This document shows positions 28,652-60,930 of a stretch of DNA of 64,000 nt, one piece after another (position 1 is the first letter of the stretch; every line of letters starts with the position of its first letter). A program made the translations under genes and the position numbers. The notes beneath the pieces are model-generated. The model searched no databases. It was not told the origin of the DNA and saw only the letters and a program-made list of their open reading frames with translations. The DNA lies in NCBI GenBank assembly GCA_033816765.1, contig CM066287.1, positions 1,302,001-1,366,000 of the forward strand, in the 5' to 3' direction. This DNA comes from Nothopassalora personata (Eukaryota > Ascomycota > Dothideomycetes > Mycosphaerellales > Mycosphaerellaceae).

Positions 28652-29257
28652 ATGCCTATCCACTAACGCCCTTCTAGTACTATCCGTCGCCGCCGTCTCT
28701 ACGAGTTCGTTAAATCTACGGGAGAAGTTATAGTTAAGAAATGCTCCACGTGTGAAAAGCATAGTCGCGTATGTAAAGTGCACATTCGTTCCGGGAAGTG
28801 TAGTAAGTGTCTTTGTCGCGGCTAAAGGTGCGATATAAGAGTAACTTAGTCGGAGTTTAAGAGGTTAGTAGAGGAGAAGGCTCGTCTTCGTTAGAAAATC
28901 TAGGAGTCTCGGTCCGCTTAGGAGGAGGCGATACGGGTTCATAAGAAGGCTCTCGAGGACCTAAAGATTGCTCGCGCGCGCGAGGAGCGCTTACGTTAGT
29001 AGATGGATCTAGTAGATCGTCGCGCCGAGGAGGCGATTTCCGTCGAGGAAAGGGAGATCGAGGAGTAGGAGCTAGAAGAGGCTTCTTTACTTCCTTCGGA
29101 TATCCCTTATAAGGGTCTAGCTCTTAACTTGTCACTAGGCACATAGGGTGCTATTAAGGGTCTCGGTAACGAGTTCTAGGAGGTGCTCCGAACTACTTCC
29201 CGCGGGTTAACTTATGGGTCTTTGTTTTTTCTTATAGTATTCTCGGATCTTTATTAA
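28652..29257 (+). pseudogene. Antisense Zn2Cys6/coiled-coil gene of G, RIP-damaged
   Basis: One continuous plus-strand frame of 201 codons from an ATG at 28652 to TAA at 29255-29257. It is interrupted only by TAG/TAA codons explained by RIP of Gln or Trp codons. All six cluster cysteines survive: Cys31, 34, 41, 50, 53, 60 (CX2CX6CX8CX2CX6C). A long charged, Glu/Arg/Lys-rich helical region (about 65-145) follows. It runs opposite to pol and meets it tail to tail just inside the 3' LTR. It is homologous in layout to the intact gene in F and the damaged one in H. The family pattern matches fungal binuclear zinc cluster DNA-binding domains; the actual function is unknown. Confidence 0.72.
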
Positions 29258-32068
29258 CAGTTTTATAGGTTCTTTTCTAGTTCCTAGGTATTTTCTAATT
29301 CGTCGTATCCTTCCCATTTAATAAGGTATCGCTAACCTTTCTTATCTAGGATTCTTTTAACTTTAAATTCGTTTTCTGCTTCCGGCTCGAAATGGAAGCT
29401 TTTCTAGTAAGGTGTTTCGGCGTCCGCGGGTTCTAACTTAGAGATATAGAAGACTAGGTGGATTTTTGCGTCTAGTGGTAGTCGTAGTCGATAGTTAACT
29501 AGTCCTACGACTTTATCGATTAAAAAATGATCCGACCTTAACGTAATCTAGTTTCTTGGTCTATCTTCTTATTCTTAAGTTTTTTATAAGGAGATAGACC
29601 TTATCCCCCTCTTTTAGTAGAGGTGCTATTTTTCTCGTGTCCTACCGTTATCGAGACAGTTTTTGTTATGTATCTTCGATCGCCTTACGTGTTTCTTTAT
29701 GCACTTCCTTAAGAGTATCCGTCGTCACGATCGCTCTTTCGGCTTATAGGTAGGATCTAGGTGTTCCGAATAGGTTAGGATCTTTACTAAAGTTCGTATA
29801 AAATAGTGTCGTTAAAGTTGTCTCCGATTTATGGTTGTTTAGTACGATCTACGCTATTGGTAGTAATGAAACCTAGTTGTTTTGTGCATAATTGATGTAG
29901 TATCGTAGGTATTGTTCTAGCGTTTAATTTATCCTCTCGGTTTATCCGTCCGTTTCTAGATGATATGCCGTTAATAGCTTATGTTTAATTCCGATCGTTC
30001 CTATAAGCGTTCTCTAGTAATTCGATGTAAATAACTTATCTCTATCCGTTATGAACGCTTAAGGGAATCCGTAGTATCGGATAAGTCTATCTAGTACGAG
30101 GTATCCGAGCTACTCTACATTGTATGTTTCTAATGTAGGAATGAAGTGTGCGTATTTCGTAAGTCTATTAACTATAACTAGTATTATGTCGTATAGTTGT
30201 TTCGTAACTTAATCTTTTAACGGTAGGAGTTTCGTAATAAAGTCTATTATAACCTCGTCCTATGGTTTCATCGGTAGTGTCCTAAACTGTAGGTGACTAT
30301 ATTTTGCATGTCTCGTAGCCTTGTTTCGTTAATAGTGCACGCATTACTTAATGTAGCGTAGTACCTTTTGCCTCATTTATAGGAATGAGAAGCTACGTTA
30401 TATTAGGTCTATTGTTTTCGAAGTTCTAGGGTACCTATATATTAGTCCGTCGTGATGTTATCGTATATATTCTTCTTCTCGGTCCTTAGGTACTTAGTAT
30501 TTTCCTTACGATATAGGAATTGTTCGTCCTTATCGCCTAGTATCCGTACGATGTTATTAAATTCTCTCGTGTTTATACTAAGACTTCCGTCGAGGTTTGT
30601 CTTTAATATCTTATGTTACACTAGTTCTTTTCCTTCTATGTAGTCGCTTCTTCGGCTTAGCGCGTTGGCGCGGCCATTCTCTTGTCCTAGAGTATATTTA
30701 ATTTCGAACTTATACTGTCCTAGTAGCTCCGACTAGCGGGCTTGCCTTCGGGTAAGTTCTTTCGTCGTCGTGAAGTACGTGAGATTCTTATAGTTAGAAA
30801 GAATCGTTAACTTCGGTAGGCCCTCGATATATACTCTCTAATGTTACATAGCAGTAACAATAGCTAGAAGCTCTTTATTATGGATGTCGTAGTTCTATTC
30901 CGCTATAGTCATTTTCCGGGAGTAATAGGCTACTAGGTGTCTCTACCCGTCGTGTGTCTATGTTAGACACGCGCCTATTACTATATTAGACGCATCGGTC
31001 TCGATGTGGACTTCCTTGCTACTATTAAATAGTCGAAGCGTAGGGGCTAAAGCGTATTGTTCCTTAAGTTTCTTAAATGCTTTAATCTATTCCTTTCTCT
31101 ATTTCTAAGTAACATCTTTCCTCGTAAGCATCGTTATTAGTACTACTGTCTTTACGTAGTCCTTAATGAATTTCCGGTTATAGTTCGCTAGTCTAAGGAA
31201 TAATTATACGTCCTTAACTGTTTTCGGTTCTAGCTATTCTCTAATTAACTATGTCTTCGTAGGGTCGATTGTTATCCCTATAGTGCTAATAATAAAACCT
31301 AAGAATTTAACTTCTTCTTATAGAATTCGCATTTCTCGGGTGCTGTCTTAAATCCTAATTGTGTAAGTCGTTCGAAGACGTCCTAGACTTGTCTTATGTG
31401 TTCCTATAGGGATCCTTTCGTGTAGACTAGTATGTCGTCCATGTACGCGATAACGTATACGTCGAGTAGGTCTCTAAGTGTCTCGTTAATAAGGTCCTAA
31501 CAGGATGCGGGTACGTTAGTCAATCCTATTAGCATAACTAAGAACTCGTAAAGTCCGTATCTTATCCTAAAAGCGGTCTTCCATTCTTCTCCTTCTACTA
31601 TTCGTATAGCGTAGAAGGCATCTCGTAGGTTAATCTTCGTATACTAGTCCGATCCGGTTAATCTATCTTATGCTTCTTCGATGTTAGGTAGCGGGTATCG
31701 GTTCTTAATCGTAATCTCGTTTAACTTCCTATAGTCTTATACGAGTCGTAACTTCCCGTTTACTTTTAGAACGAACATGTATAGAGTTCCTACACTTAAG
31801 GTAGATCTTCTTATCTATCCTTTAGCTAGCTTCTCCTTTAGCTATTCTCGTAGGGTCTATAGCTCTTTCTTAGACATTTAATATAGGGGTCCCTATAGAG
31901 GCTCTTTCCCTAGCTAAATGTTAATCTTATAATCCTATAGGCGGTACTTAGGTAAGGCGGTTTTGCCTCTCTCCTCTTTAAAGAGTCGCGACCACTTACA
32001 ATACTCCTTAGGAATACTTAACTCTAAGATGTTAGTATTCTTCGATAGTGCGTTACTTCTATCTATAA
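29240..32068 (-). pseudogene. RIP-mutated pol of G (RT-RNase H-IN-chromodomain)
   Basis: Minus-strand frame with RIP stops. The chromodomain is near 29280-29400, with a block of Ile-Leu-Asp-Lys-Lys-Gly, Gly-Tyr-Asp-Glu-Leu and Glu-Asn-Thr. Integrase lies near 29600-30450, RNase H near 30650-31050 and RT near 31300-31930. The exact end is uncertain because every stop could be a former Gln or Trp codon. The frame aligns with H at 40780-43600 and loses similarity at about 32068. Confidence 0.75.
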
Positions 32069-40255: not shown

Positions 40256-43200
40256 AAGCATTACTAACGATAACAGTGTTTCGAACTAAGATTATTATTA
40301 ACGGGCATAAGATAGATGCTATAATAGATTCCGGAGTAAGCGGGAACTTTACCTCCGAATTATTTGTTATAAGACATAGGATCGCTACCTATAAGAAGAA
40401 AGAGGGTTATAAATTAATTGCGGTAGACGGATTATCCTTACCTAGCGTAGAGCGCGAGACGATACCGCTACTACTTACTATCTAACGGTACTACGAGGAG
40501 ATTATCTTAGATGTTACCGACATAGCTAGTTATAACATCGTACTAGGTAGGCCTTAGTTAAGAAAGCACAACCTAGTAATCGACTAGAGGAGAGGAGTAC
40601 TTATATTTAAGTAATGCGATTGCGTTATCGACATTAATCCTACGTAGCGGTAGCGTTCGCTAGTAGATAAGGTAAAGAGATAGCTTAATCGAATAGAGCT
40701 TACGCCGACTAGAAGGATAGAAGAACTACCTTCGACCGGGATAGACACTAGCGTAGGGCCGCCGGGTTACGAAGTTACTAGTAGTAATAGAAGTAACGTA
40801 CTATCGAAGGATACTAACATCTTAGAGTTAAGTATTCCTAAGGAGTATCGTAAGTAGTCGCGACTCTTTAAAGAGGAAAGAGGTAAGGATGCCTTACCTA
40901 AGTACTAACTATAGGATTATAAGATAAACATTTAGCTAGGGAAAGAGCCTCTATAGGGACCCCTATAAAGTATGGCTGAGAAAGAGCTATAGACCCTACG
41001 AGAATAGCTAAAGGAGAAGCTAGCTAAAGGATAGATAAGAAGATCCACCTTAAGTATAGGAACTCTATATATATTCGTTCTAGAAGCAAACGGGAAGCTA
41101 CGACTCGTGTAAGACTATAGGAAGTTAAACGAGATTACGATTAAGAACCGATACCCGCTACCTAACATCGAAGAAGTATAAGATAGATTAACCGGATTAG
41201 ACTAGTATACGAAGATTAACCTACGAGATGCCTTCTACGCTATACGGATAGTAGAAGGAGAAGAATGGAAAACCGCTTTTAGAATAAGATACGGACTTTA
41301 CGAATTCTTAGTTATACTAATAGGATTAACTAACGTACCCGCATCCTATTAGGACCTTATTAACGAGACACTTAGAGACCTACTCGATGTATACGTTATC
41401 GCCTATATAGACGATATATTAGTCTACACGAAAGGATCCCTTTAGAATTATATAAAGTAAGTCTAGGACGTATTCGAACGACTTACGCGTTTAGGATTTA
41501 AGACAGCATCCGAGAAATGCGAATTCTATAAGAAAGAAGTTAAATTCTTAGGCTTTATTATTAGCACTATAGGGATAGCGATCGACCCTACGAAGACATA
41601 GTTAATTAAAGAATAGCTAGAACTAAAAACAGTTAAGGACGTACAATTATTCCTTAGACTAGCAAACTATAACCGGAAATTCATTAAGGACTACGTAAAG
41701 ACAGTAGCACTAATAACGATACTTATAAGAAAAGACGTTACCTAGAAATAGGGAAGAGAACAGATTAAAGCGTTTAAGAAACTTAAGAAACAATATGCTT
41801 TAGCCCCTACGCTTCGACTATTCGATAGTAGTAAGGAAGTCTATATCGAGACCGATGCGTCTAATATAGCAATAGGCGCGTGTTTAATATAGACACACGA
41901 TAGGTAGAGATACCTAGTAGCCTATTACTCCCGAAAAATGACTATAGCGGAATAGAACTACGACATCTATAATAAAGAGCTTCTAGCTATTATTACTGCT
42001 ATATAACATTAGAGAGTATATGTCGAGGGCCTACGGAAGTTAACGATTCTTTCTAACTATAAGAATCTTACGTACTTTACGACGACGAAAGAACTTACCC
42101 GAAGGCAAGCCCGCTAGTCGGAGCTACTAGGACAATATAAGTTCGAAATTAAATATACTCTAGGACGAGAGAATGGCCGCGCCGACGCGCTAAGCCGAAG
42201 AAGCGACTATATAGAAGGAAAAGAACTAGTGTAAAATAAAGTACTAAAGACGAACCCCAACGGAAGTCTTAGCGCTAACATAAGAGAATTTAACAACATT
42301 GTACGGATATTAGGCGATAGGGACGAACAATTCCCTATATCGTAAGGAAAATACTAGGTACTAAAGGATCGAGAAGAAGAATGCATACCATAACATTACA
42401 ACGGACTAACTTATAGACACCCTAGAACTTTAAAGACAATAGACCTAATATAACGTAGTTTCTTATTCCTATAGATAAGACTTAAGGTATTACGCTACAT
42501 TAAACAATGCATATACTACTAACGAAACAAGGCTGCGAGACATGTAAAATACGGTTACCTACAGTTTAGGACACTACCAACGAAACTATAGGACGAAGTT
42601 ATAATAGACTTTATTACGAAACTCCTACTGTTAAGAGACTAAGTTACGAAATAACTATACGACATAATACTAGTTATGGTTAATAGACTTACGAAATACG
42701 CACACTTTATTCCTATATTAGAGACATATAATATAGAGCAGCTCGGATACCTCGTACCAGATAGACTTATCCGATACTACGGATTCCCTTAAGCATTTAT
42801 AACGGACAGAGATAAGCTATTTACATCGAACTACTAGAAGACGCTTATAGGAACGATCGGAATTAAACATAAGCTATTAATAGCATATTATCTAGAAACA
42901 GACGGACAAACCGAGAGGATAAATTAAACGCTAGAACAATATCTACGACACTATATTAACTACGCACAAGACAACTAGGTTTTATTACTGCTAATAGCGT
43001 AGATTACACTAAACAACTACTAATCGGAGACAACTTTAACGACACTATTCTATACGAACTTTAGTAAAGATCCTAACCTATTTAGAACACCTAGATCTTA
43101 CCTACAAGCCGAAAGAGTAATTGTAACGACGGATACTCTTAAGGAAGTACATAAAGAAACACGTAAGGCGATCGAAGATGCATAACAAAAACTGTCTTAA

Positions 43201-43620
43201 TAACGGTAGGACATAAGAAAAATGGCACCTCTACTAAAAGAGGGGGATAAGGTCTATCTCCTTATAAAAAACTTAAGAATAAGAAGATAGACTAAGAAAC
43301 TAGATTACGTTAAGGTCGGACTATTTTTTATCGATAAAGTTATAGGACTAGTTAATTACCGCCTACGACTACCGCTAGATGCAAAAATCCACCTAGTCTT
43401 CTATATCTCTAAGCTAGAACCCGCAGACGCCGAAACACCCTACTAGGAAAGCTTTTATTTCGAGCTAGAAGTAGAAAACGAATTTAAAGTCGAAAAAATC
43501 CTAGATAAGAAAGGTTAGCGATACCTTATTAAGTAGAAAGGATACGACGAATTAGAAAATACCTAGGAACTAAAACAAAACCTACAAAACTATTAGTAAA
43601 AGATCCGACAATACTAAAAA
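40256..43620 (+). pseudogene. RIP-mutated pol of H (PR-RT-RNase H-IN-chromodomain)
   Basis: An unbroken protease piece survives at 40276-40485 with Ile-Asp-Ser-Gly-Val-Ser, so the catalytic Asp is intact. RT follows (about 41050-41600, with Tyr-Ile-Asp-Asp preserved near 41407), then RNase H (about 41800-42210), integrase (about 42400-43050, with Thr-Asp-Arg-Asp-Lys near 42803 and Glu-Thr-Asp-Gly-Gln near 42895), and a C-terminal chromodomain (about 43480-43590). Stops are RIP-type. The reading frame is otherwise coherent from end to end, giving a good view of the full-length family of which G and I are fragments. Confidence 0.78.
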
Positions 43621-43837: not shown

Positions 43838-44320
43838 CTAGTTATTTACGGGCATCTCGAGGATATCCGAGAAAGAAACTAGCGAAGGCGACACCTCTAC
43901 CCCCGACGCCCGCTTAAGAGACGCTAGCTCCTCGCGCGCCTCTTCCTCCTCGAGCTCCTCTAACTCCTTAGCGACGGTATCGTCGGTACGACGCTTAGCT
44001 AATCGTAGCTGTTTCCGAAGACGGATCTTACGCATCTTTAGCCGCACCTCCTCCTCTTTAATCCTCTTAAGCTCTAGCTTAAGATTATCGCGCGAATCGC
44101 GAAGACGTTCCTACTCCGGACGAGAAAGACGTATATCGCAATCTTTATAGCCTTTTCGAATATAGGCCGAACACTTTCTAGACCGAGAACCTACGATACA
44201 CTTTACTACTACGCCCGAGGATCGAGACTTCTAACAATTCGTGTATAGAGCTATTTTAATACTAGAAATTTTAGTATCCTAAGTAAGTCGTTAACGGCGC
44301 TTATAGGAGGAAGAAGACAT
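43838..44320 (-). pseudogene. Antisense zinc-cluster/coiled-coil gene of H, RIP-damaged
   Basis: Minus-strand frame from ATG at 44320 to the stop at 43838, 161 codons, broken by a few TAA/TAG. The second half of the cysteine cluster aligns with G: Lys-Cys-Ser, then about eight residues, then Cys-Asp-Ile-Arg, with one cysteine position reading Tyr. The first half keeps two Cys. A strongly charged helical region follows, and its last 69 codons (44047-43838) are fully open. Located between pol and the 3' LTR and opposite in strand to the element, exactly as in F and G. Confidence 0.62.
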
Positions 44321-46949: not shown

Positions 46950-49230
46950 TACTAACCACTTAGTTCCACTTAGTCTTACACAACTCCTTTATCTAGACCT
47001 ACTCGTTGTCGTAGCTAACACTAGTCTTACTAGACGCGTCCCTAAGTAGCTAGCTAGTGAAGTTCCTATAGTAGTTACGGAAGAAGCTCTTATTACGCCC
47101 TTCGCTTATAAAGCATATCTGCTCGAGAGTAGTAACTAAGCTAAGCTACTTATCTATCAATTTTATAGCTCGGACGCGCTAATTATGTATCTTCTTATAG
47201 AAGAGCTCCGAGTCTAGGCGGACCGTAGTATTAAGCTACCTTCTAGCATTAAGAATAACTTCGTTATCGTTCTAAGACTTTAAACCCGCTAGGGCATCGG
47301 ATAGAGGGCTAATGCTACTAAGGTGTACGGCCGTAGGGAAAGGATAGCTAGGTACTAGGCGTCGATACTTAAACCCTGTAGCGCTCTTACTTAGCGTCTT
47401 AAAGTTACGATAGAGGTCTATTACCTAGTGCATGCTCTAGCTTCTCTAGAGTTTAAGATAGTTATCGTCGCGGATCTTAATAAAGTAAGGGTTAATCTAA
47501 CGTAGCGTCTTCTTATGTACGGCCTACCTTATTAGAACGCCTATAGTAGTTACCCGCATTTACCTAGCGCTTAGGTCCTCTCTAAACTAGCTAATGCTAT
47601 TCCTACTTAGGTAATTCTAAACCCTAACCGAGAAGAAACGCTTAAATCGGCCGTCTTCTATATAGTCGTTAATCCGGCACTACTAGATGAACTCTATAGC
47701 ATTCCCTTACTTATAAAAACCATGTAAAAACTCCGGCCTACTAGTGCCCTCTATATTAAGAGAGTATAGTATGTTAAGCCGGTTACTAGTCTAGTAGTTT
47801 TCAATTTCGAGGTTTAAGTCGACCCTAGCATGCTACACTATAGCGTTTATATTACCCCCCTAATAAGCCCTATTAAAGCTAAAAATCGTAGGCCTAGGGA
47901 AGGAGATAAACCGAGTGCAGTATTAAGGGTGTAGCGCTACTTATAAGAGCTATAGCCCGGGGTCTTATCGTATAATCTATTAGCTTAGAGAATACTACAT
48001 GTTCTAGTAGACGCCGCCGTTACTAACTTTATTCAATTCTCGTAGGTACTATCGGTACACGTCGAATTCTCGACTCATTATCTCTCTAACTGTTTTAACC
48101 CGCGGCGCTAGTTTAGCGTTATTATACTAGTATAGTATGTTACTATTAATGTAGGTACCGGTACTATTAAGATCGGCTTAGTTAGCTTCATCGATACTAA
48201 ATTTGTCGAGGATCTAGTTATAGTTAGCATACGTAACGATGCTACTCGTAGTACCGACTTTACCTCGAACGCGGAGGTAGCTAAGCGGGTTAACAGTCTT
48301 CTAACTACGCTTATTAGGGCGAAACTACGACCTATTTTTCACCTTCATAGCTAAAAACCTCTTACCTTTAAAGAGCTAGTCTTAGACCTTAAGCGCGCGC
48401 TTATATAGGGTATTAGCGGTAATACCGGGATTCGTAACGAAGTAGAGGGCCTTATAGTAGAAATCTCGAATATGCTAATCGCATATTATAGCGCTAACCT
48501 TACTATCCCTCTTAAGAACCTACGAGACAGTATATTCGAGCATCTTAAGGCCCGCCATCCGGTACTTAGGTAGCTAGTTAATACTATCTACATTAATCGA
48601 GTTTCTAAACTTAATGCTACAGTACCGCTTATCGTAGGTGCAGTTAGCGCGCTTAATCCGGAGGGCCTCGTCTTCTTATAGGATCTAGTCCTTAAAGACT
48701 AATACATCCCTAATTATAGCCGAAGGTAATATAGTCAGTATTAGATTGCTATTCTTAGTTAGGGCCGGAGTAGATCGTAGGGTGCTAACCGGTGTACCTA
48801 GCGGACTGCCTTCGCGTATAGGTGCGCCGTCTAGCGTTCGGTTAGGCGAGGATTAAGTAGGCGCAGTTATGCCCTTACCTATGCTCTCGCCTATGCGGAG
48901 CTACTTAAGTCGACTCGACTTACGACCGCCTCTTAATAGGACTATAGGCTAGGTAGAGGCTAGTAGAGTTAGCGTAGTACTCTTCGCACGTCCTTTACCT
49001 TTACTACCCGGTAGTAGCTAACGTAGCTAAGGCTGTTACTAGCTAGATAGTCTAGGTTAATCTATACTGTCCTCTAGGGACGCGGACTTCTTAGTAATAG
49101 TACCCTCTATAAAGTATAGAAGGCTATCCTTATAGACGGCTAGGCGGTATCTTCTAATAATCTCCCTACTCTTAGCCGACTACGGATTAATGCTACGTGC
49201 TTTAGCCTCCCTATCGCACCGGGTAACGTT
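46950..49230 (-). pseudogene. RIP-mutated ORF of element E2
   Basis: Same decayed protein as in E1, lacking its N-terminus. Useful because its RIP hits differ: at about 47832 it keeps His-Ala-Arg-Val-Asp-Leu-Asn where E1 has Tyr for the His. Not expressible. Confidence 0.4.
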
Positions 49231-49290
49231 ACGGGTAAACGACGTATATACTAAAGTTCTATAAGGTTTATAATAAGTTTGATATAGAAG

Positions 49291-49625
49291 TGTTACGGAC
49301 ACGTCCATTCGCTACGAACAACAAGGGCTCATGCAGGCTGCGAGGCAGCAGGACTGAGGGTGGACGACTCAGATCGAGACTGAGGCTGAACGACTCAGAT
49401 CGAGACTGAGGCTGAGCGACTCAGATCAGTCACGCCAAGACATGGCACTATATAGACGACGCTTCTTTACGAGTAGATAGGAGCCTCGTGCTCAACTCAA
49501 ATCAACACTCTTGTGTTAAGTTGCAACCTTGTAGTGAACTCTCGTTCACACTACTTTAGAGACATATCGAGGATCGACACTTCCTAGGCCACCCACGTGA
49601 CGAGGGACAAGGCCCAACCGCAACA
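49291..49625 (+). repeat. 5' LTR of F
   Basis: TGTTACGG...CGCAACA, 335 bp. TATA box at 49449-49455. The segment GTGCTCAA at 49488-49495 is complementary to the primer site. It contains a 26-bp direct repeat (49365-49390 and 49391-49416) with a partial third unit. Confidence 0.95.
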
Positions 49626-49635
49626 CTTTGAGCAC
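49626..49635 (+). promoter_or_regulatory. Putative self-priming primer-binding site of F
   Basis: TTGAGCAC at 49628-49635 is complementary (8 nt) to 49488-49495 in the LTR, 39 nt after the TATA box. Confidence 0.5.
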
Positions 49636-49664
49636 CAAAAGCCGCGGGGAGTGCTATCGATTAT

Positions 49665-50654
49665 ATGTCTGGGAGAGACGCTACCCGGAGTCCGTCACGA
49701 CAACAGCCACAGTCAACTGGCATCACGGAACGAATGAGCGAAATGTCGATTACAGGAAGCAGCAAGAACAACAACACTCCTATGGGCATGCTGAACCCAT
49801 TGGACCACCACCGTGCACCTAAGGTGTCCACGCCGGAGACGTTCGACGGGACTAAGGACAAACTGGAGGCTTTTCAACTGCAGGTTCAGTTGTACCTTCA
49901 CTTCAACGCACACCAGTTTCAAGGCGAGGCCAGCAAGGTCTTGTACGCCGCATCCTTCCTACGTGGAAAAGCAGCTAGAGGATTCCGACCATACCTCAAG
50001 GACTGGCTCCATAACCAGGGTGAGGGGGAAACACCGAAAACGGAGACTCGAAAAATTTTTCACGACTACGACGAGTTTGAGACGAAACTCGATGATCTAT
50101 ACGGGATACCAAATGAGGAGGTATACGCCGACCGACATATCCGACAACTTCGACAGACTACTTCTGTAGCGCTGTACGCCTCAGAATTCCAAGGATATGC
50201 CGCCGACCTGGAATGGAACGACGCAGCTTTGCGATCGCAGTTCTACCTCGGGCTGAAAGACAACGTCAAAGCCGAACTATCCCGAAACGCCAGCGTCGTT
50301 ACGCTAGGGGCGATGATCAAGGCAGCAAAGGAGATCGACGAAAGGCTCCAGGAGTTGAGGTACGACCGACACGTACAGCCTGGATACCAGAGACCCGCCG
50401 CGGGCGGAAGAGGGGGCTTCAAGGCCAGAAGTCAGGACCCTAGTTACGGAGATCCAATGGAATTGGACGTAACGGAGCGTAGGACAGGAAGGGGGCTGAA
50501 GAGCAAAGGTTCCACCTGCTACGTATGTGGCGAGCAAGGCCACTTTGCAAAGAACTGCAAGAAAAAGAACATGGTTAGCCGCGAGTTCAACGCAATGATT
50601 CGCGAAGAGAATACATACCAGGAATGCGAGAACTTCTTCTCGAAATCTGCCTAG
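49665..50654 (+). CDS. Gag protein of non-autonomous element F
   Basis: 329 aa, starting at ATG 49665 shortly after the 5' LTR. The N-terminus is basic and Ser/Gln-rich. The retrotransposon capsid domain (about 50-225) begins at Phe-Asp-Gly-Thr and has two paired blocks similar to the I gag. A Pro-Met-Glu-Leu-Asp-Val-Thr motif near 262 precedes a standard Cys-X2-Cys-X4-His-X4-Cys zinc knuckle at 285-298. Such Gag proteins assemble particles and bind RNA. The product is fully intact. The sequence after its stop (50655-50767) has no pol homology that I can see. Confidence 0.92.
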   Translation: MSGRDATRSPSRQQPQSTGITERMSEMSITGSSKNNNTPMGMLNPLDHHRAPKVSTPETFDGTKDKLEAFQLQVQLYLHFNAHQFQGEASKVLYAASFLRGKAARGFRPYLKDWLHNQGEGETPKTETRKIFHDYDEFETKLDDLYGIPNEEVYADRHIRQLRQTTSVALYASEFQGYAADLEWNDAALRSQFYLGLKDNVKAELSRNASVVTLGAMIKAAKEIDERLQELRYDRHVQPGYQRPAAGGRGGFKARSQDPSYGDPMELDVTERRTGRGLKSKGSTCYVCGEQGHFAKNCKKKNMVSREFNAMIREENTYQECENFFSKSA

Positions 50655-50767
50655 CAGAAACAACCTGAGGACAGCAAGGCATCAAACAGCGGCTTCTTGA
50701 TTTGATGACCTAGGACATAGAAGTCAACATTACGGCATGGACAAATGACTACTGGATACTGGACAAC

Positions 50768-51265
50768 TTACCCGACCATGTGACCCGAGGAATCACCCGA
50801 AGGACCCGACCACGAGAACGGAGACCCGACGCCGGCAGACTGGAGGTTGGCCTCCAGCTCCTCGAGAGTAGAGGGGTCACCATCCTCCTCCGACACCTCT
50901 TGCGCCATGCACCGCAATTTCTCGTCCGCGCGGCGGCTGTTCTCAGAGAGAACTCGCTCGTTTCTCGTGATACGGGACTGGAGCGCGGCGAGCTGTTCAA
51001 GCAGGGAGTCACGGGCTTTTCGATCCGTTTCCAGCCTGGCGGCTAGTTCCTCCGCTGTTCGGTCAAGCGCCTCCCAGGAGGTGGTGACGCAGGACCTGCC
51101 TGTGCGGACGCAGTGGGCACAAGACGACGACATCCTTAGATCGGAAGAGTATTGGCAGGACCGTTTCAGACGACGACAAGTATCACAAGGAACAAGAGCA
51201 GGCCACGAATCCGCTAGGATACGAGCAACAAGAGCCTTGCGAGAAAGGGTAGATTTGGAAGGCAT
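50768..51265 (-). CDS. Antisense Zn2Cys6-like protein with coiled coil, carried by F
   Basis: 165 aa from ATG 51265, on the strand opposite to gag and close to the 3' LTR. The frame extends upstream to an ATG at 51385 inside the LTR; I prefer 51265 because it follows a TATA-like sequence by about 45 nt and matches the start position in G relative to the cysteines. Six cysteines at 27, 30, 37, 49, 52, 59 give CX2CX6CX11CX2CX6C, the fungal binuclear zinc cluster pattern, with basic residues (Arg-Arg-Leu-Lys-Arg) in the first loop. Residues about 66-130 are heptad-like and charged, then an acidic tail. It lacks the large regulatory domain of ordinary Zn2Cys6 activators. The role is unknown; DNA binding to the element's own LTR is a guess. 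Confidence 0.8.
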   Translation of the reverse strand: MPSKSTLSRKALVARILADSWPALVPCDTCRRLKRSCQYSSDLRMSSSCAHCVRTGRSCVTTSWEALDRTAEELAARLETDRKARDSLLEQLAALQSRITRNERVLSENSRRADEKLRCMAQEVSEEDGDPSTLEELEANLQSAGVGSPFSWSGPSGDSSGHMVG

Positions 51266-51307
51266 CCTTTGAAACTTGGGGAAGTTAGGAAACGAAGGAG
51301 GGGCATT

Positions 51308-51318
51308 GATTATATAAG
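51308..51318 (-). promoter_or_regulatory. TATA-like box for the antisense gene of F
   Basis: CTTATATAATC on the minus strand, about 45 nt upstream of ATG 51265 and inside the element between gag and the 3' LTR, suggesting its own promoter. Confidence 0.45.
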
Positions 51319-51367
51319 ACAACGACACGTGATCAATAGGGACATTGATCCTAGAGGAGGGAGGTGG

Positions 51368-51702
51368 TGTTACGGACACGTCCATTCGCTACGAACAACA
51401 AGGGCTCATGCAGGCTGCGAGGCAGCAGGACTGAGGGTGGACGACTCAGATCGAGACTGAGGCTGAACGACTCAGATCGAGACTGAGGCTGAGCGACTCA
51501 GATCAGTCACGCCAAGACATGGCACTATATAGACGACGCTTCTTTACGAGTAGATAGGAGCCTCGTGCTCAACTCAAATCAACACTCTTGTGTTAAGTTG
51601 CAACCTTGTAGTGAACTCTCGTTCACACTACTTTAGAGACATATCGAGGATCGACACTTCCTAGGCCACCCACGTGACGAGGGACAAGGCCCAACCGCAA
51701 CA
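51368..51702 (+). repeat. 3' LTR of F
   Basis: 335 bp, identical by eye to 49291-49625. Preceded by purine-rich AGAGGAGGGAGGTGG, the probable polypurine tract. Confidence 0.95.
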
Positions 51703-51707
51703 AGAAG

Positions 51708-52320
51708 AAAGGGGAAGTTACACGCTATCCGAAGAAAAGGTGTCGGAAAGCAATCCGAACGCATAGGCGCATCCTATGCTAAGGAACAGGGGCCCGCCCC
51801 TTACACTACCCCCCCCTTCCTCCTCCGCCGCCCCTAGTCCTAGCTCCGCCCTAGAGCCTATTGTCCTAGCTGTTTTTATTAGGCTCGTAATAGGAAGTGC
51901 CCGAGCTTCTCTTCCTTATTATCTAGCCCCGCCGACGCCGAGACGAAGTATTATTACCTAGGTAAGTGTAAGGTTTACTATTGTCTACTAAGTAACAATA
52001 GCTATTGTTATATGTAAATAATAGGAGCCTAGAACATATCTTTAGGTTCTCGTTCTCTTTTTCTTTCTTTCTTTTTTTCTTATTACCTACCGTACGCGTA
52101 AGTCGCCCCTCCCCCTCCCCCTAGCTAAGCGTCTCTAGCCTTAGGGGTATACGTTTACGCATCTTATACCTATCGCTTAGGGAGACGACATTTTCCCTAC
52201 GGGTTCCGATAGATACTAACGGCATGCCGTAAATAGAAACTACTACTACTACATCTCCTATTAATACTATTAAGTAAGTCCGAATAAATTACTACGGGGA
52301 CCGACACATTCTAACTAGAA
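51708..52320. other. Untyped RIP-mutated sequence, possibly N 3' LTR
   Basis: Contains a C-rich stretch at 51806-51835 and a long pyrimidine tract at 52050-52081, which is a polypurine tract on the minus strand and so fits the 3' end of minus-strand element N. LTR ends could not be fixed. No ORF of note. Confidence 0.35.
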
Positions 52321-53983: not shown

Positions 53984-54167
53984 TGTAAGGGCGCGCGTAC
54001 CATAGGGTCCGAATGAGATAGTTGTTGTTCTACGAAGCTACGAAAGAGGAGCGCGAGGCGCGGCGGATAGATAAAGCATCGCCAAGCCGCGCTAACCCGA
54101 TGCGGAAGGTCCGAGGTTCCGCCGGGACGACGCATCGTCAGTGAAGGGTCGCGGGCTGCCCGTGACA
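53984..54167 (-). repeat. 3' LTR of M
   Basis: 184 bp, identical by eye to 61100-61283. A purine tract on the minus strand (54170-54181) adjoins it. The last ~25 codons of pol lie inside. Confidence 0.95.
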
Positions 54168-57100
54168 GTACCCCCCCTCTCAAAACTCGTCTCAGTCCTC
54201 TGAGCGTTCAGTCCATTAACTCGCCTATCCATCGTCTTGTGCGGCCACTTATCACCCTTGCCTGTCGAACTCCATAATCGTGCAAACGTCCAATCGTCTT
54301 CAAGGTCGTCCTCCATCTCTGTCACTACTGCTGCGGCTTGCGCATCAGACTCTGTTTGCTCATACTGCTGGCACGCCCAGGGCCTAAGCCCCTCTTCGGC
54401 GAACGCTCGCGTCTGATCCTTTTGACCAAGGTTGGGTATCAATGCAGGCTCTGCAGGGTTCGCTAGAACATCGGTACAACTGTCTGTTCTGTCGTAGAGC
54501 TGAGGGCGGCGGCTTGCACCGTGATCCTCAGTTGGGACGACGGACTTTCCTGTAACCTGATCATCGTAGCGGTGCGTAGTGAACATGCGCTGACCAGATT
54601 CTATCAGAGGCAAGGCTCGGCTAGGCTTATTTGTGGCGGTGTCTCTGTCGACCCTGATCGTGTTAAGTCCGAGCACCTCATTGACTGGAGACCAGTCAGA
54701 TGGCGTTGCGAAGCCCTGAGGCGTGGGCAAATCCGGCCGGCTGTGGTGAAAGTCCGCAAGAGCGGCGGCTGCCCTCACAAACAGGTCCTCTGCAGGTTGC
54801 CAAGTCTCTCCGGCCTCCATATCCTGATAGCCAGTCCATCGCACCTTGTACCAAGTGTCCACCTTGCGCTTCTTTCCCTTCTTCACTTTGCCTGCGCGCT
54901 TCCGCGTGTACATGTCCAAGATCTTGTCCACCTCATATTCTGGTGCCGGGGCTGTGACTGTGACATCGGCGACTGCGTCAGCTGCAGTTGTGTCGGGTTC
55001 GATGGCCACTGGCGGCGGCGGTGCCAGGTGCTGTCCCTCGAGCGGTGGGAGATCGGGGTTGTCGGCTCGCTGTAACAGGGAGGTGTGGAAGCAATTATCG
55101 AGTCCGCTCAATGCATCCGACAGGTTCAGCTTGTATGACAGCCTAGCGGGCATCACCTCCGTGATCTGGTACGGTCCTGCATATCTGCGGTCCAGCTTCT
55201 TGGATGGTCGAGTGGTGCGAATGTTCTTCGTGCTTAGATACACCCAGTCGCCAACCTTGTAGTCTGGTGGGATGCTTCGGTGCCTGTTTGCTGCTTCGGC
55301 TTGCAGCGCCTGTGACATCCTCATGTTCTCTTGAAGATTGCGATGTAGCTCACAGATGCGTTTGGCGAAGGCTTCGGCTGACTTGCTGTCGAGTCGCTGA
55401 AGGGTTGTCATGTGTCGGTCCTTGCCTGCTTGCAAATCGATACGCTCGGTGAACTCTGGGTTATATCCAACATTGGCGTAGAACGGTGACACTCCAGTGG
55501 TCTCCGACACTCGGTTGTTAATAGCGAACTGCGCTAAGCACAGCCAGTCGGCCCAGTCGCTCTGTGCCTCATTCGTGAAGGTGCGTAAGTACTGTTCCAT
55601 CTCTTGGTTAGTGCGTTCTGATTGCCCATCCGTTTCAGGGTGGTAGGAGGAACTCAGCTTCCTGCTGATGCGCAGCATCTTGCATAGGCGCTTCCAGAAA
55701 GTGGCGATGAACTGCTTTCCGCGATCAGACGTGATGGTTTCTGGGAGGCCATGCCGGGTGAACACGTGCTTTAAGAAAAGTCGCGCCGCGTTCTGCGCTG
55801 TCATCGCGCCGATGGGTATCAGTTCCACTTCCTTAGTGAGTCTGTCGGTGACTGTCATAACATTGGTGTAAGTCATGCCGTCGAGTTCGCTTGGTGGCAG
55901 GTCAACCACAAAGTCAACTGCGATGTGTTGCCAAGGTCGTTCTGGCACCGAAAGTGGGTGCAGTAATCCAGGTGGCTGGGTATGCACAGATTTCGTCGTG
56001 CGGCACCTGCGGCAATTCGCGTTGTATCTGCGCACAGATCTAGCCAAACCAGGCCAGTAGAATTCACGTGCAACGAGCTCGTAGGTGCGGGCTCTGCCTG
56101 GGTGACCGGCCGCTGGGGTGTCATGGTTCATCTTGACTATCCGAGTGCGGAGCTTCTGGTCCTCTGGCACCCATAGACTCCAGTCATTATACTGGTTACG
56201 GACGTACAGCAGGTCCCCTTCGACCTTGCAGTGTACTGGATGCACCTTCGCTTTCTGAAGGAGTGCTGGGGTCTCGCCCTTCTGCAGGGCTCTGATAGCT
56301 GACTTCAGGTCTGCATCCGCGGCATAAGCCATTGTCATTCTGTACTCGAGTTCGGCTTCCTGTTCCGTCTCGGATGCTGTCTGCGTCTGCGTGGACGGTA
56401 TGAATTCGGTGGCCTCCGGGTTCAGGGCTTCCTCAATTGGTGCGGTAGGTGTGTTCTCAACAGGTGCAACATCCTCAGCCGCATCTTCGACAGTTGCGCG
56501 CATCGAGTCGATCTTAAGAAATCGCTCAGGCGGCAGCAACGTCTGATGCTGATGCTGATTTCGCGGATCGTCCACCCCCTGCGGAAGGTCCTGGCTGCGT
56601 CTCGTGAGGCTGTCAGGCTTTGTGCCTTGGACACCTGGTCGATAGACAATACGGAAGTTGAACTGGGACAGGAATTCGGCCCAACGTGCCTGGCGCCGAT
56701 TCAGCTGCTTAGTGGTCATAAAGTACTCCAAGTTCTTGTGATCCGTGAACACCTTCACGGGTTCGATGGTGTCATCATCCGCCTCGCAGGCCAACTCCGG
56801 GCGCCATTCCTCGAAGGCCTTAATAATCGCTAGAAGCTCCTTGTCATAAATCTCATAGTTGCATTCCTGCGGGCTCAGCTTCTTTGAATAGAATGCTACA
56901 GGGTGAAGCACGCCTTCCTCGTCGTACTGAGAAAGCACTCCGGCGTTCACGAAATCTGATGAGTCCGTTTCGACTACTGTTTGCCTACCGGGCACATAGT
57001 GTGCGAGCATACCGGCTTTGCTGAATGCTGCCTTCAGAGCGTCAAATGCTGCTTGGCATGCTGGTGTCCAGTCAACCCTGCGATTCTTGTGATTACTAGG

Positions 57101-58894
57101 TCCATTTGACTTGGTCAATTCGGTCAGCGGCGCTGCGAGGCGTGAGAAGGCCTCGATGAACCGTCTGTAAAAGTTGGCGAATCCGAGGAACGCCTGCACA
57201 TCCTTGAGGTTGGAAGGTGCTTCCCATGACTGGATACATTCAAGCTTCTCTGGGTCCATTTCGATGCCATCTGGGGTGATAATAAGTCCCAGGTACTTAA
57301 CTCGCTGCTGGTGGAACTCGCACTTGTCGATGTCGACCGTCAGTCCGGCATCCCTCAATTTTGCTAGTACCTTGCGCACATGTTCGATGTGCTCCTCCAG
57401 TGTGTCGCTAAAAATTAAAACGTCGTCCAGGTACGCGGAGACGAAGTCATCCAGGTGTTCTTGTAACACGCTGTTAATGTATGACTGAAACGACGCAGGG
57501 CCATTGCATAGGCCGAATGGTAACACAAGACATTCGTACACCCCATATCGTGTAGCGAATGCTGTAAGCCATTCGTGCCCTTCTGCAATGCGAAGCTTGT
57601 TGAAGGCTGCGACGATGTCCAGCTTCGTGAAGTACCTCTTGCCGTGCATGCGGTTCAGTGTCTCTTGGATTAGCGGTATAGGGTACCTGTTCTTGATAGT
57701 GATCGCATTGAGTCCTCGGTAGTCGATGCACACGCGCAGTCCACCGCCTGGCTTTCTAACTACCAGTACTGGTGCCGGCGATTGGCTCGTCTTCTGTCCT
57801 GCTGGCCGGACTTTGCCTTGTTGCTCCTGTTCGGTGACCCACTTCTTGACTGCTTCATTCTCCTGAGGCGCCAGTCCGTAGGGCTTACGGTATGGCGGTT
57901 CTTGGGGCCCATCAGGCTTGATGTGAATTTCGTGGTCGATTCCAGGTCTGTGAGGAGGAAGTCCTTCATGGTCTTTCGCTGAGAATGCATCTACGAGATC
58001 ATGGTATTCTGGTGGGAGCTTCTCCTTCGGGTTATGGTTGAACTCCTTGTTCAGGAACTGATCCAAGTCATCAGCTGCCATTGCGCTCAGCTTGATCTCA
58101 CCATCGCCTTCTTCGTCCTCTTTGCCGGTAGATAGTATGTAGAAACATTCAGCGCCAGGTCGGTGCGCGTACATCTCGAAGGCGCGCTGCGTGACGCCTA
58201 TACACTCGACTTCCTCATCATCGTCGTACAGGCCCATCGAGGATAGGTTCAGTTCTGCTTCTGCCCCTCCTGCCGTGAAGCTGCGATCATCGGTGAAGGG
58301 CTCTGGTCCATATTTCATTGCTTCCTTACGTTGTCGGTGTCGATGGTTCAGGGACTGGACTGTTGTCGATGTCTTGTTCTTAAGACAGTGACCAAAGCAG
58401 TAGTCTGATCTGAGTGCCACTTCACCGGTCTCCCAGAAGATGTTTGGGTTGTGCGTGCTCAGCCACGGCAGGCCCAGGACGATGTCGTATTCGAGGTCGG
58501 TTATGTAGCATAGCATTTGCTCGTGATGACCGTCGATATCAACATCGACGAGGGCTACGTGCGTGATGCGACGTGCAGCAGCCTTACCATCCCCAAGGGT
58601 CAGGTTCTTGTTGCGCACAAGGGGTATCAAGGGTATTCTGTGTTTGCGTGTGAACTTCCAGTCGAGAAAGAGAGAGGTGGAAGCAGAGTCTACAAGGCCT
58701 CGTGCCTTCCCATGCTGTATCATTACTGGGAGTACTATGTGAGGGTGTACATCTGGTTGCTGCGGCTCCAATGCGCAGGCCGATATCTTCAGCTCCTCAC
58801 CATAGTCTGTATCCGTGTCTTGCTCTTGCACTCTGTGTCTCTCAATCTCATGCTCTTTCTGTCCTTGGTTGTTCGGTTGACCACTGTCTGCCAC
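54092..58894 (-). CDS. Pol polyprotein of chromovirus M (PR-RT-RNase H-IN-chromodomain)
   Basis: 1,600 codons, in -1 relative to gag. The first codon taken, at 58894, is GTG, and the frame is open further upstream into gag, so frameshifting is expected. Protease: Asp-Ser-Ala-Ser at 69-72 and LGLPW at 140-144. RT about 375-560 with YLDD at 488-491. RNase H about 638-766. Integrase zinc site His924, His931, Cys961, Cys964; catalytic D994, D1057, E1093 with 35 residues between the last two. GPY motif at 1240-1242. Chromodomain about 1319-1385. The enzyme set copies and integrates the element. The stop falls within the 3' LTR. All catalytic residues are present, so it is probably active. Confidence 0.96.
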   Translation of the reverse strand: MADSGQPNNQGQKEHEIERHRVQEQDTDTDYGEELKISACALEPQQPDVHPHIVLPVMIQHGKARGLVDSASTSLFLDWKFTRKHRIPLIPLVRNKNLTLGDGKAAARRITHVALVDVDIDGHHEQMLCYITDLEYDIVLGLPWLSTHNPNIFWETGEVALRSDYCFGHCLKNKTSTTVQSLNHRHRQRKEAMKYGPEPFTDDRSFTAGGAEAELNLSSMGLYDDDEEVECIGVTQRAFEMYAHRPGAECFYILSTGKEDEEGDGEIKLSAMAADDLDQFLNKEFNHNPKEKLPPEYHDLVDAFSAKDHEGLPPHRPGIDHEIHIKPDGPQEPPYRKPYGLAPQENEAVKKWVTEQEQQGKVRPAGQKTSQSPAPVLVVRKPGGGLRVCIDYRGLNAITIKNRYPIPLIQETLNRMHGKRYFTKLDIVAAFNKLRIAEGHEWLTAFATRYGVYECLVLPFGLCNGPASFQSYINSVLQEHLDDFVSAYLDDVLIFSDTLEEHIEHVRKVLAKLRDAGLTVDIDKCEFHQQRVKYLGLIITPDGIEMDPEKLECIQSWEAPSNLKDVQAFLGFANFYRRFIEAFSRLAAPLTELTKSNGPSNHKNRRVDWTPACQAAFDALKAAFSKAGMLAHYVPGRQTVVETDSSDFVNAGVLSQYDEEGVLHPVAFYSKKLSPQECNYEIYDKELLAIIKAFEEWRPELACEADDDTIEPVKVFTDHKNLEYFMTTKQLNRRQARWAEFLSQFNFRIVYRPGVQGTKPDSLTRRSQDLPQGVDDPRNQHQHQTLLPPERFLKIDSMRATVEDAAEDVAPVENTPTAPIEEALNPEATEFIPSTQTQTASETEQEAELEYRMTMAYAADADLKSAIRALQKGETPALLQKAKVHPVHCKVEGDLLYVRNQYNDWSLWVPEDQKLRTRIVKMNHDTPAAGHPGRARTYELVAREFYWPGLARSVRRYNANCRRCRTTKSVHTQPPGLLHPLSVPERPWQHIAVDFVVDLPPSELDGMTYTNVMTVTDRLTKEVELIPIGAMTAQNAARLFLKHVFTRHGLPETITSDRGKQFIATFWKRLCKMLRISRKLSSSYHPETDGQSERTNQEMEQYLRTFTNEAQSDWADWLCLAQFAINNRVSETTGVSPFYANVGYNPEFTERIDLQAGKDRHMTTLQRLDSKSAEAFAKRICELHRNLQENMRMSQALQAEAANRHRSIPPDYKVGDWVYLSTKNIRTTRPSKKLDRRYAGPYQITEVMPARLSYKLNLSDALSGLDNCFHTSLLQRADNPDLPPLEGQHLAPPPPVAIEPDTTAADAVADVTVTAPAPEYEVDKILDMYTRKRAGKVKKGKKRKVDTWYKVRWTGYQDMEAGETWQPAEDLFVRAAAALADFHHSRPDLPTPQGFATPSDWSPVNEVLGLNTIRVDRDTATNKPSRALPLIESGQRMFTTHRYDDQVTGKSVVPTEDHGASRRPQLYDRTDSCTDVLANPAEPALIPNLGQKDQTRAFAEEGLRPWACQQYEQTESDAQAAAVVTEMEDDLEDDWTFARLWSSTGKGDKWPHKTMDRRVNGLNAQRTETSFERGGTVTGSPRPFTDDASSRRNLGPSASG

Positions 58895-58896
58895 GC

Positions 58897-60930
58897 TTAG
58901 GCAGTGGCCTCGCCATTTCCCTGCCCGGCGGCCAGGGAACTGAGGTTGGTGTTGCCTCCGTTGTTGTTACGCGGGCGCGGTGGGCGATAGTCGCCGTCGT
59001 AGCCATACATCGGGCACTCGGTATTGCTGGATAAGTGGGGTCCGGTGCGGCATCGGTAGCACTTGCCCTGCTTCTTCAATTCCTCGCGACCCTCATAGTT
59101 GAGCGGTGGGAGGTCCCGAAGGTGAGCTGGCAAGTCTTCCTTCTTCTTGGTGCCTACGTACTGTGGTGGGCGCTGAACGACGGCGCCGGCAGCACCAGCG
59201 GCTGCAGCTGCAGCTGTGTTGCCCTGGTTCTGGTTGCCGTTGCCGTTGCCGTTCTGGTTGCCTCCTCCATTGCCGCGTGGGCGGTTGTTGTTCTCTTGAG
59301 GGTACAGCTGCTCGGTCTCGTAGAACTGCTCGTCCAGTGCAGTGCACTCTTCGATCACGTCCTGCATGCTGTTCAGACGTCGGTCCACCTCGCGGTCTCC
59401 GAAGGTCTTGATGTAGTAGCGCTTGTTGAGGCGTGTGCGGAACAGCATCAACTCGGTCTCGTCACTCCAGTCAACCCATGCCCTCAGCTTGGAATAGCGT
59501 GCGAAGAATGGGACGAAGTTCTCCTTCTGAGCCTGTTTGCAGGTAGTGATGTCCACTGCAGCCTTGGTGGCCTCGTTGCGGACGCCGTACTGTCGAGTCA
59601 TCCAGTCCAACAGTTCTTCGCCAGTCATGAACTCGTTGAAAGCCTGGTGCCCGGGGATGGGGATGCGAGGCTTCACAGTCTTCTGCACCTCACCGTCCGT
59701 CCATCCATACAGGAAGCGTAGGGCGTCCTGTTCAGTGCGGAACGTCGCGACTGTCAACTTCAGCAGGATGCTTGTGTACCAGCTGTCATAAGTCGGGTCG
59801 TCATCGTTCTTGAACTTCTTTGGGTCAGGCACACCCTTGCCGATCTTCATGCTGCGGTCGAGGGTGGGGTCGATGTTGATGAGACGCTCCGGCAGGTCCA
59901 CGAGAGGTGTCTGCTGCGTGCGGTTGCTGCGACCACCGCCTGACCGCTGCGTGCCTTGTGTGCCTTGGCGCTCATCACGACGTGGTCGGTCATGGTCACG
60001 ACCACGGCGATCCCTGTCCTTGTCTCCATTGCCATCGTCATCATCGTCTCCTCCGCCACCTCCTCCTGCTGCCGCCTCACGGTACCGACGCTGGAGCACC
60101 TCGAGTGAGGTCTCGCGGGGTGGTGGTGATCGTGGGCGTGAGCGTGGGCGCGAGCGCGAACGACGTCCTCGTGCCTGGTCCTCTGCTGCTTGCAGACGGA
60201 CCTTCAGGTCATCAACCTCAGCTTGTAATGCCTGGCTCTTCTTCTTCTCCGAGTCGGTGATATCGGCGAACTGCTGACATAGCTCGTTCGCATCCTTGTA
60301 CTTCTTCTCGACAGCCTTGAGTTTGAGGGTGTCGGCGTTCTTATTCTTAAGGTCCTGGGCCATCTTCGCGAGGGCGGTCTGTTCGGTCTTGAGCATCCCG
60401 TGGATGCGATCGTACTCGGCATACAGCGTACGGTACTGCTTGTTCTGAAGTGCATTGGCGCGTTGCATCACATCGAGTTGTTGGCTAGATATGATGGCAG
60501 TGTTGAATCCTCGTAGCACGAAATCGTGGACGGTCTTCGGGTGTTCCTTGGTCAGTGTGGCCAGGTCTTCGGCGGTGATGTTCTGGAAGTCGGCGGCAGC
60601 GATGTGTTCGGCTTCGTCGTGTGAAATGAAGACTGGTGTGTCCTCCTCTTCTCCCACCCTGGGCTCGAAGAGTTCTGTGAAATCAAGCTCACCGTTCTGC
60701 TCCCTGTCTTGTGCTTTGTTCCATGCCTTGTCCAGCTCTTGCTGAAGCGCGACACCGGTGTCAACTGTGACTCGCCGAGTGTCGTCTCCTTGTGTCTGAC
60801 TGTCGAAACTGGAGAGGTCGGGGAAAAGAGAGGTGCGCTTGCCTTGTGTCTGTGACTGCTGGGAAGTCATGTTGTTTCCTTCAACGCGGCCTGTTGCTGA
60901 GGCCTTTGGTGCGTTGGTTTCCTTGGGCAT
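58897..60930 (-). CDS. Gag polyprotein of chromovirus M
   Basis: 677 aa from ATG 60930. Domains in order: acidic N-terminal region, coiled coil (about 160-260), Arg/Ser-rich stretch (about 260-285), Gly/Asp run (about 300-315), capsid-like domain (about 365-560), Asn/Gly-rich and Ala-rich linkers, and a knuckle Cys-X2-Cys-X4-His-X6-Cys at 624-639. It forms the particle and binds RNA. Its TAA is two bases from the first pol codon taken, and the pol frame overlaps it in -1. Confidence 0.93.
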   Translation of the reverse strand: MPKETNAPKASATGRVEGNNMTSQQSQTQGKRTSLFPDLSSFDSQTQGDDTRRVTVDTGVALQQELDKAWNKAQDREQNGELDFTELFEPRVGEEEDTPVFISHDEAEHIAAADFQNITAEDLATLTKEHPKTVHDFVLRGFNTAIISSQQLDVMQRANALQNKQYRTLYAEYDRIHGMLKTEQTALAKMAQDLKNKNADTLKLKAVEKKYKDANELCQQFADITDSEKKKSQALQAEVDDLKVRLQAAEDQARGRRSRSRPRSRPRSPPPRETSLEVLQRRYREAAAGGGGGGDDDDDGNGDKDRDRRGRDHDRPRRDERQGTQGTQRSGGGRSNRTQQTPLVDLPERLINIDPTLDRSMKIGKGVPDPKKFKNDDDPTYDSWYTSILLKLTVATFRTEQDALRFLYGWTDGEVQKTVKPRIPIPGHQAFNEFMTGEELLDWMTRQYGVRNEATKAAVDITTCKQAQKENFVPFFARYSKLRAWVDWSDETELMLFRTRLNKRYYIKTFGDREVDRRLNSMQDVIEECTALDEQFYETEQLYPQENNNRPRGNGGGNQNGNGNGNQNQGNTAAAAAAGAAGAVVQRPPQYVGTKKKEDLPAHLRDLPPLNYEGREELKKQGKCYRCRTGPHLSSNTECPMYGYDGDYRPPRPRNNNGGNTNLSSLAAGQGNGEATA

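Follow-up and report, generated by a model that had tools for sequence, protein, structure and literature searches.

An antisense Zn2Cys6-type gene inherited with the U3 promoter region in long terminal repeat retrotransposons of Nothopassalora personata

The window analysed here is a stretch of 64,000 nucleotides from the fungus Nothopassalora personata (contig CM066287.1, positions 1,302,001 to 1,366,000). It contains element F, an intact long terminal repeat (LTR) element of 2,412 bp at 49291-51702 that has a gag gene, lacks pol, and carries on the opposite strand a gene for a six-cysteine protein. The features of the element are as follows, in window positions.

49286..49290 and 51703-51707, no strand: left and right copies of the target-site duplication (TSD) AGAAG, matching at 5/5 nucleotides
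49291..49625, plus strand: 5' LTR, 335 bp, 100% identical to the 3' LTR; its U3 (unique 3') part drives gag
49626..49639, plus strand: primer-binding region, 8 nucleotides of which can base-pair with GTGCTCAA, located in the LTR 40 bp beyond the TATA box
49665..50654, plus strand: gag, 329 amino acids, with a Retrotrans_gag domain and a zinc knuckle
50768..51265, minus strand: antisense Zn2Cys6 gene, 165 amino acids, frame open
51353..51367, plus strand: polypurine-rich stretch before the 3' LTR, identified by eye
51368..51702, plus strand: 3' LTR, with the variable U3 part from 51368 to about 51564 and a putative border between U3 and R (the repeat region)
51443..51504, no strand: repeated words around GACTCAGATC in U3, candidate binding sites

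The LTRs begin with TGTTAC and end with GCAACA. The GACTCAGATC repeats lie upstream of the TATA box at 51525, and the 5' LTR copy of the repeats is at 49366-49427. The stretch following the 5' LTR can pair over 8-9 nucleotides with a site in the element's own LTR that is 37-40 bp after the TATA box, and this was found in 9/9 elements tested. Tf1-type self-priming is a known priming mechanism, and the pairing probably reflects self-priming of a Tf1-like kind. A search of Rfam with positions 49200-51800 gave no match. The antisense frame has an in-frame upstream methionine at 51385, 18 nucleotides inside the 3' LTR. The start at 51265, which had been chosen in an earlier sequence-only reading of this DNA, is the better one because its methionine aligns with Met1 of the other versions of the protein.

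The protein encoded by element F has a basic N-terminus, a six-cysteine cluster (residues 27-59), a helix at residues 64-127 and an acidic tail. The cysteines had been correctly placed at C27/30/37/49/52/59, and they are invariant across an alignment of nine sequences. The consensus spacing of Zn2Cys6 clusters is of the type CX2CX6C...CX2CX6C, and six cysteines with spacing of this type are found in 20/20 listed versions. The versions are designated by letters of our own (type H is not element H). The R/Gt group has 13 residues rather than 6 between cysteines 2 and 3. Comparison of F with the Pfam family Zn_clus (PF00172) is borderline, giving 21.0 bits from Met41 and 20.4 bits for the whole open reading frame with a cut-off of 21, and just 2/9 versions match the family at E 0.1 or better. 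The predicted model of F has two short helices in the cluster, followed by the helix of residues 64-127. Foldseek found nothing in the PDB at E 0.001 or better using this model. In a second structure comparison, 11/11 listed entries were Zn2Cys6 DNA-binding structures.

The charge is unevenly distributed. In 19/19 versions the net charge is +3 to +10 over the first 60 residues and -2 to -16 over the last 60, and it is -3 or lower over the last 60 residues in 184/190 full-length homologues. Within the acidic tail lies a tryptophan preceded by SP (W152 of F), whose conservation across 62 sequences is 90% or more; a host coactivator might make contact there. Among 124 windows within the first 130 residues, variability in types A, B, C, D and F peaks at the loop between cysteines 2 and 3, which touches DNA in Gal4. 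In these types the mean identity of the loop is 0.13, compared with 0.61 for the remainder of the cluster, a pattern that the R and I clades do not share. A possible reading of this variability is a diversification of DNA recognition within the A, B, C, D, F clade.

The antisense protein is under purifying selection. The ratio of nonsynonymous to synonymous substitution rates (dN/dS), judged in unsaturated pairs, takes values of 0.040 and 0.086 for the two most similar pairs, and 0.13-0.22 in four pairs at 61-63% identity. These values are far below 1, and the ratio near 1 that had been named as counter-evidence in the sequence-only reading is not what we find. Taken with the conserved cysteines they rule out a chance frame. 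The same data bear on the suggestion that only the antisense RNA matters and that the reading frame is incidental. Non-coding antisense transcripts are described in other elements (PMC7264820), yet here dN/dS is 0.04-0.09, the six cysteines are present in every listed version and whole in 194/214 homologues, and in element F a gap of 113 bp between the gag stop codon and the end of the antisense gene leaves no overlap with gag. We consider an RNA-only role highly improbable, and the codon evidence and conserved cysteines led us to reject it as the sole function.

We searched the host genome (54.5 Mb, 40 contigs) with the F protein, the type I protein and gag, scoring 150/291, 150/791 and 122/1043 candidates respectively. 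There are at least 141 matches to the F protein and at least 150 to the type I protein; the number for F alone is a further reason why its gene is not a chance frame. The antisense genes previously noted in F and in two other elements of the window, G and H, are real, and belong to something larger. The first 28 loci (L001-L028) gave 21 delimited elements, the remainder (L005, L007, L008, L013, L016, L021 and L022) being tandem, nested, damaged or incomplete. A perfect 5-bp TSD is present in 20/21 delimited elements, the LTRs are 100% identical in 18/21, and the antisense frame is full in 20/21, with that of L027 interrupted by a stop. In all 21 the gene begins no more than 486 bp from the 3' end of the element.

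Two kinds of body carry the gene. The small body is 2.36-2.49 kb in length, with gag only and without a pol of its own. The large body is a chromodomain Ty3/gypsy element of 6.9-7.07 kb; in L011 Pfam identifies protease, reverse transcriptase (RT), RNase H, integrase, a Tf2-like SH3 domain and a chromodomain, and a chromodomain was seen by eye at the end of pol in L062, L063 and L068. Between small and large bodies the identity of gag is 38%. Fourteen versions of the antisense gene are found on small bodies (F, A, C, D, E, Gt, O, Q, R, S, T, U, V and W, counting S2 with S) and four on large bodies (B, H, I and N). A relative of V in L016 has an LTR with the large-body R region, its body being unread. 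The 122 listed copies of the small-body gag are 98-100% identical, and 121 are stop-free. An antisense gene follows every one of these 122, as judged by position in 76 and by sequence in 33, with 13 further copies all of type R. Among the 33 read by sequence, L040 has a frameshift, L041 a deletion and L043 a stop, and L047 is cut short. The N-terminal stretch of the gene is missing in frame in L030, L048 and L061. The stop-free gag copies (121/122) and the identical LTRs (18/21) represent a recent burst untouched by repeat-induced point mutation (RIP). Many old copies have up to 11 stops, mostly TAG, the pattern expected from RIP. On contig C12 there is a head-to-tail array from 1355590 to 1366463, with six type A antisense genes spaced every 2,056 bp, and L016 (G000:C12:1353600-1363500) holds four array units with repeats that are 100% identical.

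The presence of the gene with 122/122 gag copies, together with relatives in other fungi, rules out a host gene captured in a few copies. The sequence-only reading had proposed a conserved Zn2Cys6-type gene of LTR elements, intact in active elements and without the usual regulatory domain, and this stands, as does its association with LTR elements close to the 3' LTR. Its assignment to one lineage was too narrow, since this is a cassette family on at least two body types.

The antisense gene and the promoter region are inherited as a unit, with one exception, L019, considered below. Elements with antisense proteins of as little as 28% identity have a gag that is about 99% identical, and the adjoining U3 differs too. 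When seven small elements of other types are compared with F, gag is 94-100% identical per 100-bp window, whereas the antisense gene (windows 1500-2000) is 38-57% and the U3 window 33-52% identical. The large types H and I behave similarly. In 200-bp windows the identity of their bodies is 92-100% as far as about 5.8 kb, falling to 31-54% from the antisense gene to the 3' LTR; the first LTR window is 40% identical and the very end 100%. Synonymous differences per site are 0.014-0.16 in gag, compared with 0.32-0.75 in the antisense gene for elements of those types, in 10/10 pairs computed. The contrast is 3-fold for R-U and 8-fold or more in the nine other pairs. We take this to reflect exchange, rather than a difference in mutation rate.

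The fetched loci contain 88 hits to the antisense gene. A U3 could be read for 81, which were used as gene-U3 pairs, and 7 were left out; S and S2 count as one type, and one F copy is counted twice through the overlap of L005 and L022. The pairs fall into 22 U3 clusters, 21 of which have a single protein type. Type R accounts for 23/81 pairs. Types C, D, R, S and V each have more than one U3 cluster, which for C is a matter of array length.

The U3 sequences contain repeated words. A repeated 6-mer exceeds dinucleotide shuffles in 12/17 distinct U3s (p below 0.05, uncorrected); type N is without a readable U3. Tetramers were counted in 15 U3s, two long arrays being left out, and the U3s D1 and P, which duplicate those of W and H, did not enter this count. 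The most enriched are GATC (54, with 22.6 expected) and TGAT/ATCA (63, with 26.7 expected), while CCAA ranks fourth and GAGC fifth (63 compared with 37.6). The core GA(T/G)C, which was picked after inspecting the sequences, occurs 153 times in total in these 15 U3s, compared with 76. There is no excess of it in the four gags tested, and it is not enriched individually in the U3s of F, D, B, T and V. The sites are densest 30-90 bp upstream of the TATA box. Across 19 cassettes the similarity of the proteins correlates with that of the U3 words (r = 0.36, p = 0.0002), the correlation falling to r = 0.20 (p = 0.021) when S2 and U are removed. Two single comparisons are the most telling. The S and S2 proteins are 97% identical and the left ends of their U3s differ, yet both have AAGAGAKC-type arrays. 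V and its relative in L016 have proteins that are 54% identical and U3s that align over 16 bp alone, and ACGACC/GGTCGA words occur in both.

The decoupling of gene from body is visible already within the window, in elements G and H, which have similar bodies and different antisense types.

28652..29188, plus strand: damaged antisense gene of type I, element G, 85% identical to intact type I copies with stops read as X
29233..32063, minus strand: part of the body of element G, 91% identical to element H
40787..43619, plus strand: part of the body of element H, 91% identical to element G
43838..44320, minus strand: damaged antisense gene of element H, diverged and stop-broken, 36-43% identical to types R, U, Gt and S

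The 91% identity of the two bodies extends across 2.8 kb. The antisense gene of element G contains nine TAG and two TAA stops. This element is inverted, so its antisense gene lies on the plus strand, and a minus-strand reading of the coordinates first proposed is stop-rich; the gene is real and starts at 28652. By eye, the gene of element H has tyrosines at the first and fifth cysteine positions. Other Ty3/gypsy-like elements lie at 18381-25919, 32882-39821 and 53984-61284, with RT and RNase H domains in pieces of the first and third. Among the matches listed in searches with the F and type I proteins, none of these three has an antisense gene.

Relatives are found in other fungi. Three profile searches found 175, 86 and 9 proteins, of which 120, 86 and 9 were listed, and sources among the matches listed include Elsinoe, Sporormia, Cercospora, Bathelium, Cryoendolithus, Cladosporium, Xanthoria and Dissoconium. 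For 29/120 listed homologues the longest assembled piece is 6.0-7.4 kb, about the size of one large element, which suggests that these 29 reside in elements. Some versions are closer to outside proteins than to any other in this genome. A is 82% identical over 115 residues to an outside protein, compared with 63% to the best version here, and the corresponding values are 93% and 44% for B, 83% and 48% for I, and 65% and 51% for O. C, D, E, H, R and U are among the types nearer to another version of this genome. The closest outside homologues may come from the same or a sister species. In a protein tree using 42/214 homologues, with W and S2 left out, the body types are mixed; well-supported branches force at least three changes between body types, and 0/200 bootstrap trees need just one. 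A search of IMG/VR with the type I protein gave no relatives.

The best explanation, to which we give a probability of roughly one half, is that the antisense Zn2Cys6 gene and the U3 half of the LTR form an exchangeable cassette, with a protein that most likely activates the LTR of its own element. A regulator of the linked promoter is the simplest reading because the protein is of a DNA-binding type, is inherited and changes with the promoter, and is untied to the body. The earlier idea of an LTR-directed regulator is better supported now that the gene is seen to be inherited with the U3 promoter, though still as a proposal; the companion idea, that the protein counters silencing, has nothing specific in its favour here. 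We infer U3 binding, dimerisation, activation in place of repression, and a template-switch route, which would operate as follows. The protein would be a dimeric transcription factor, dimerised by its long helix; the zinc cluster would recognise repeats within its own family's U3, and LTR transcription would be activated by the acidic, aromatic tail. Transcription from the 5' LTR would express gag or gag-pol, and that from the 3' LTR probably the antisense gene itself. Since the element RNA ends gene-U3-R, gene and promoter would move jointly, and a single template switch in reverse transcription could transfer both onto another body. More tentatively, at somewhat short of even odds, the cassettes may be private-key switches, in which each antisense Zn2Cys6 factor is paired with U3 sites read by it alone; they would be old enough to have relatives in other fungi, and would be template-switched between autonomous and gag-only bodies.

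The main rival to activation is that the protein represses its own LTR, as a form of copy-number or immunity control comparable to that of temperate phages, with new specificities spreading by escaping the resident repression. The evidence for a gene-U3 module fits this equally, many versions coexist in one genome, and the antisense protein HBZ of human T-cell leukaemia virus type 1 (HTLV-1) is described as lowering expression from the viral 5' LTR (PMC10186651). The sites, however, are mostly upstream of the TATA box and not over it, the acidic tail with its conserved aromatics would resemble an activation region, and single types such as R have reached high copy number. We regard repression as unlikely; activation is favoured because the tail is acidic and aromatic and the repeats are placed upstream.

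Some observations weigh against a regulator matched to its own U3. L019 (G000:C1:221500-231400) combines protein D with a U3 of type W, so that strict pairing of protein and U3 is broken. Its frame length differs from that of four other type D copies, and it looks like a natural recombinant, present as a single copy. The U3s of A, C and D have almost no words in common. The proportion 21/22 overstates the independent evidence, because 9/22 clusters are single-copy and a large number of copies descend so recently from one another that they hardly differ. The idea that the cysteine 2-3 loop determines the U3 motif found no support, as the loop does not predict U3 similarity (partial r -0.08, p = 0.81, 19 cassettes). 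The separability of gene and U3 in L019 and the dissimilar U3s of A, C and D would be explained if the target were host genes or host silencing and the U3 link were mere physical neighbourhood, given that adjacent sequences co-move in any exchange. Yet protein and U3 similarity correlate beyond permutation, and S and S2 keep the same kind of repeat array despite their different left U3 ends, so a host target seems rather unlikely. A cofactor of transposition, acting in nuclear import, RNA packaging or target choice, would account for retention of the gene in gag-only elements without pol, and the antisense protein of maize Grande is described as nuclear (PMC7264820). Such a cofactor should track gag or pol, yet the protein varies while gag stays about 99% identical, and we consider this improbable.

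Antisense genes at this position have been published before, for brtn, Grande and Retand, and so have U3 subfamilies, for crapaud. The suggestion that the arrangement was undescribed consequently fails for an antisense gene as such, given brtn in Boty-like elements; it holds in that we found no description of a Zn2Cys6 identity or of gene-U3 coupling for fungal LTR elements, in a literature search that most subscription papers lay outside. The function of antisense genes beside the 3' LTR is described as unknown in plant and fungal elements (PMC7264820). Here the antisense gene and the U3 diversity become one unit, with a recognisable class of protein function, so that a direct test is feasible of whether each protein acts on its own U3 only. 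If each does, promoter specificity is a means by which retrotransposons compete, elements with gag alone are able to govern their own expression, and the cassettes offer natural factor-site pairs for studying the evolution of Zn2Cys6 specificity.

The closest known system in fungi is brtn, the antisense gene of Boty-like Ty3/gypsy elements of Botrytis cinerea (Zhao et al. 2011, Virology 417:248; PMC8365987, PMC4227169, PMC5987419, PMC7264820). As here, there is a fungal LTR element with a gag-pol ending in a chromodomain and an extra antisense gene between pol and the 3' LTR. Compared by description alone, it differs in that the accessible descriptions contain no U3 coupling; no protein named BRTN is among the homologues listed. 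The plant antisense genes (Grande gene23, RIRE2 and PvRetro13, PMC7264820; Retand TRP28, PMC11963269) are also described as conserved antisense frames between pol and the 3' LTR, encoding nuclear or predicted DNA-binding proteins with a proposed regulatory role, but they have different protein domains and the accessible accounts describe no exchange as a unit with U3. The genes studied here resemble those termed aORF-3R: they are antisense, lie between gag(-pol) and the 3' LTR, and occur in most family copies, in 21/21 delimited and 122/122 listed cases. The crapaud element of Podospora is likewise a fungal chromodomain LTR element with many U3 subfamilies, 14 in number, having a conserved R-U5 and an internal region that does not track LTR subfamily (PMC10787394). 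In its available description gag and pol are the sole frames drawn and the origin of the varied U3s is not settled; the private-key reading could explain U3 subfamilies such as these. HBZ of HTLV-1 is similarly encoded by an antisense gene from the 3' LTR, as a nuclear protein that resembles DNA-binding factors in some features and acts on its own LTR, but it is reported to be bZIP rather than Zn2Cys6 and to lower expression, by binding CREB-2 (PMC10186651); it is not part of an exchangeable cassette.

The Gal4-type factors (HAP1, PUT3, LAC9, PPR1, Leu3 and GAL4) share with the predicted protein a six-cysteine cluster followed by a helix, a resemblance seen in the modelled structure and, weakly, in sequence. 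The proteins here are about 160-220 amino acids, lack the large regulatory domain, and are encoded inside a retrotransposon. Temperate phage immunity regions are exchangeable repressor-operator modules. They belong to DNA phages and their repressor is experimentally shown, whereas here binding and the sign of regulation are predictions. In both, a regulator (here a putative one) and its sites are swapped as one module on a shared body, and if the private-key reading is true these cassettes would play in retrotransposons the part that immunity regions play in phages.
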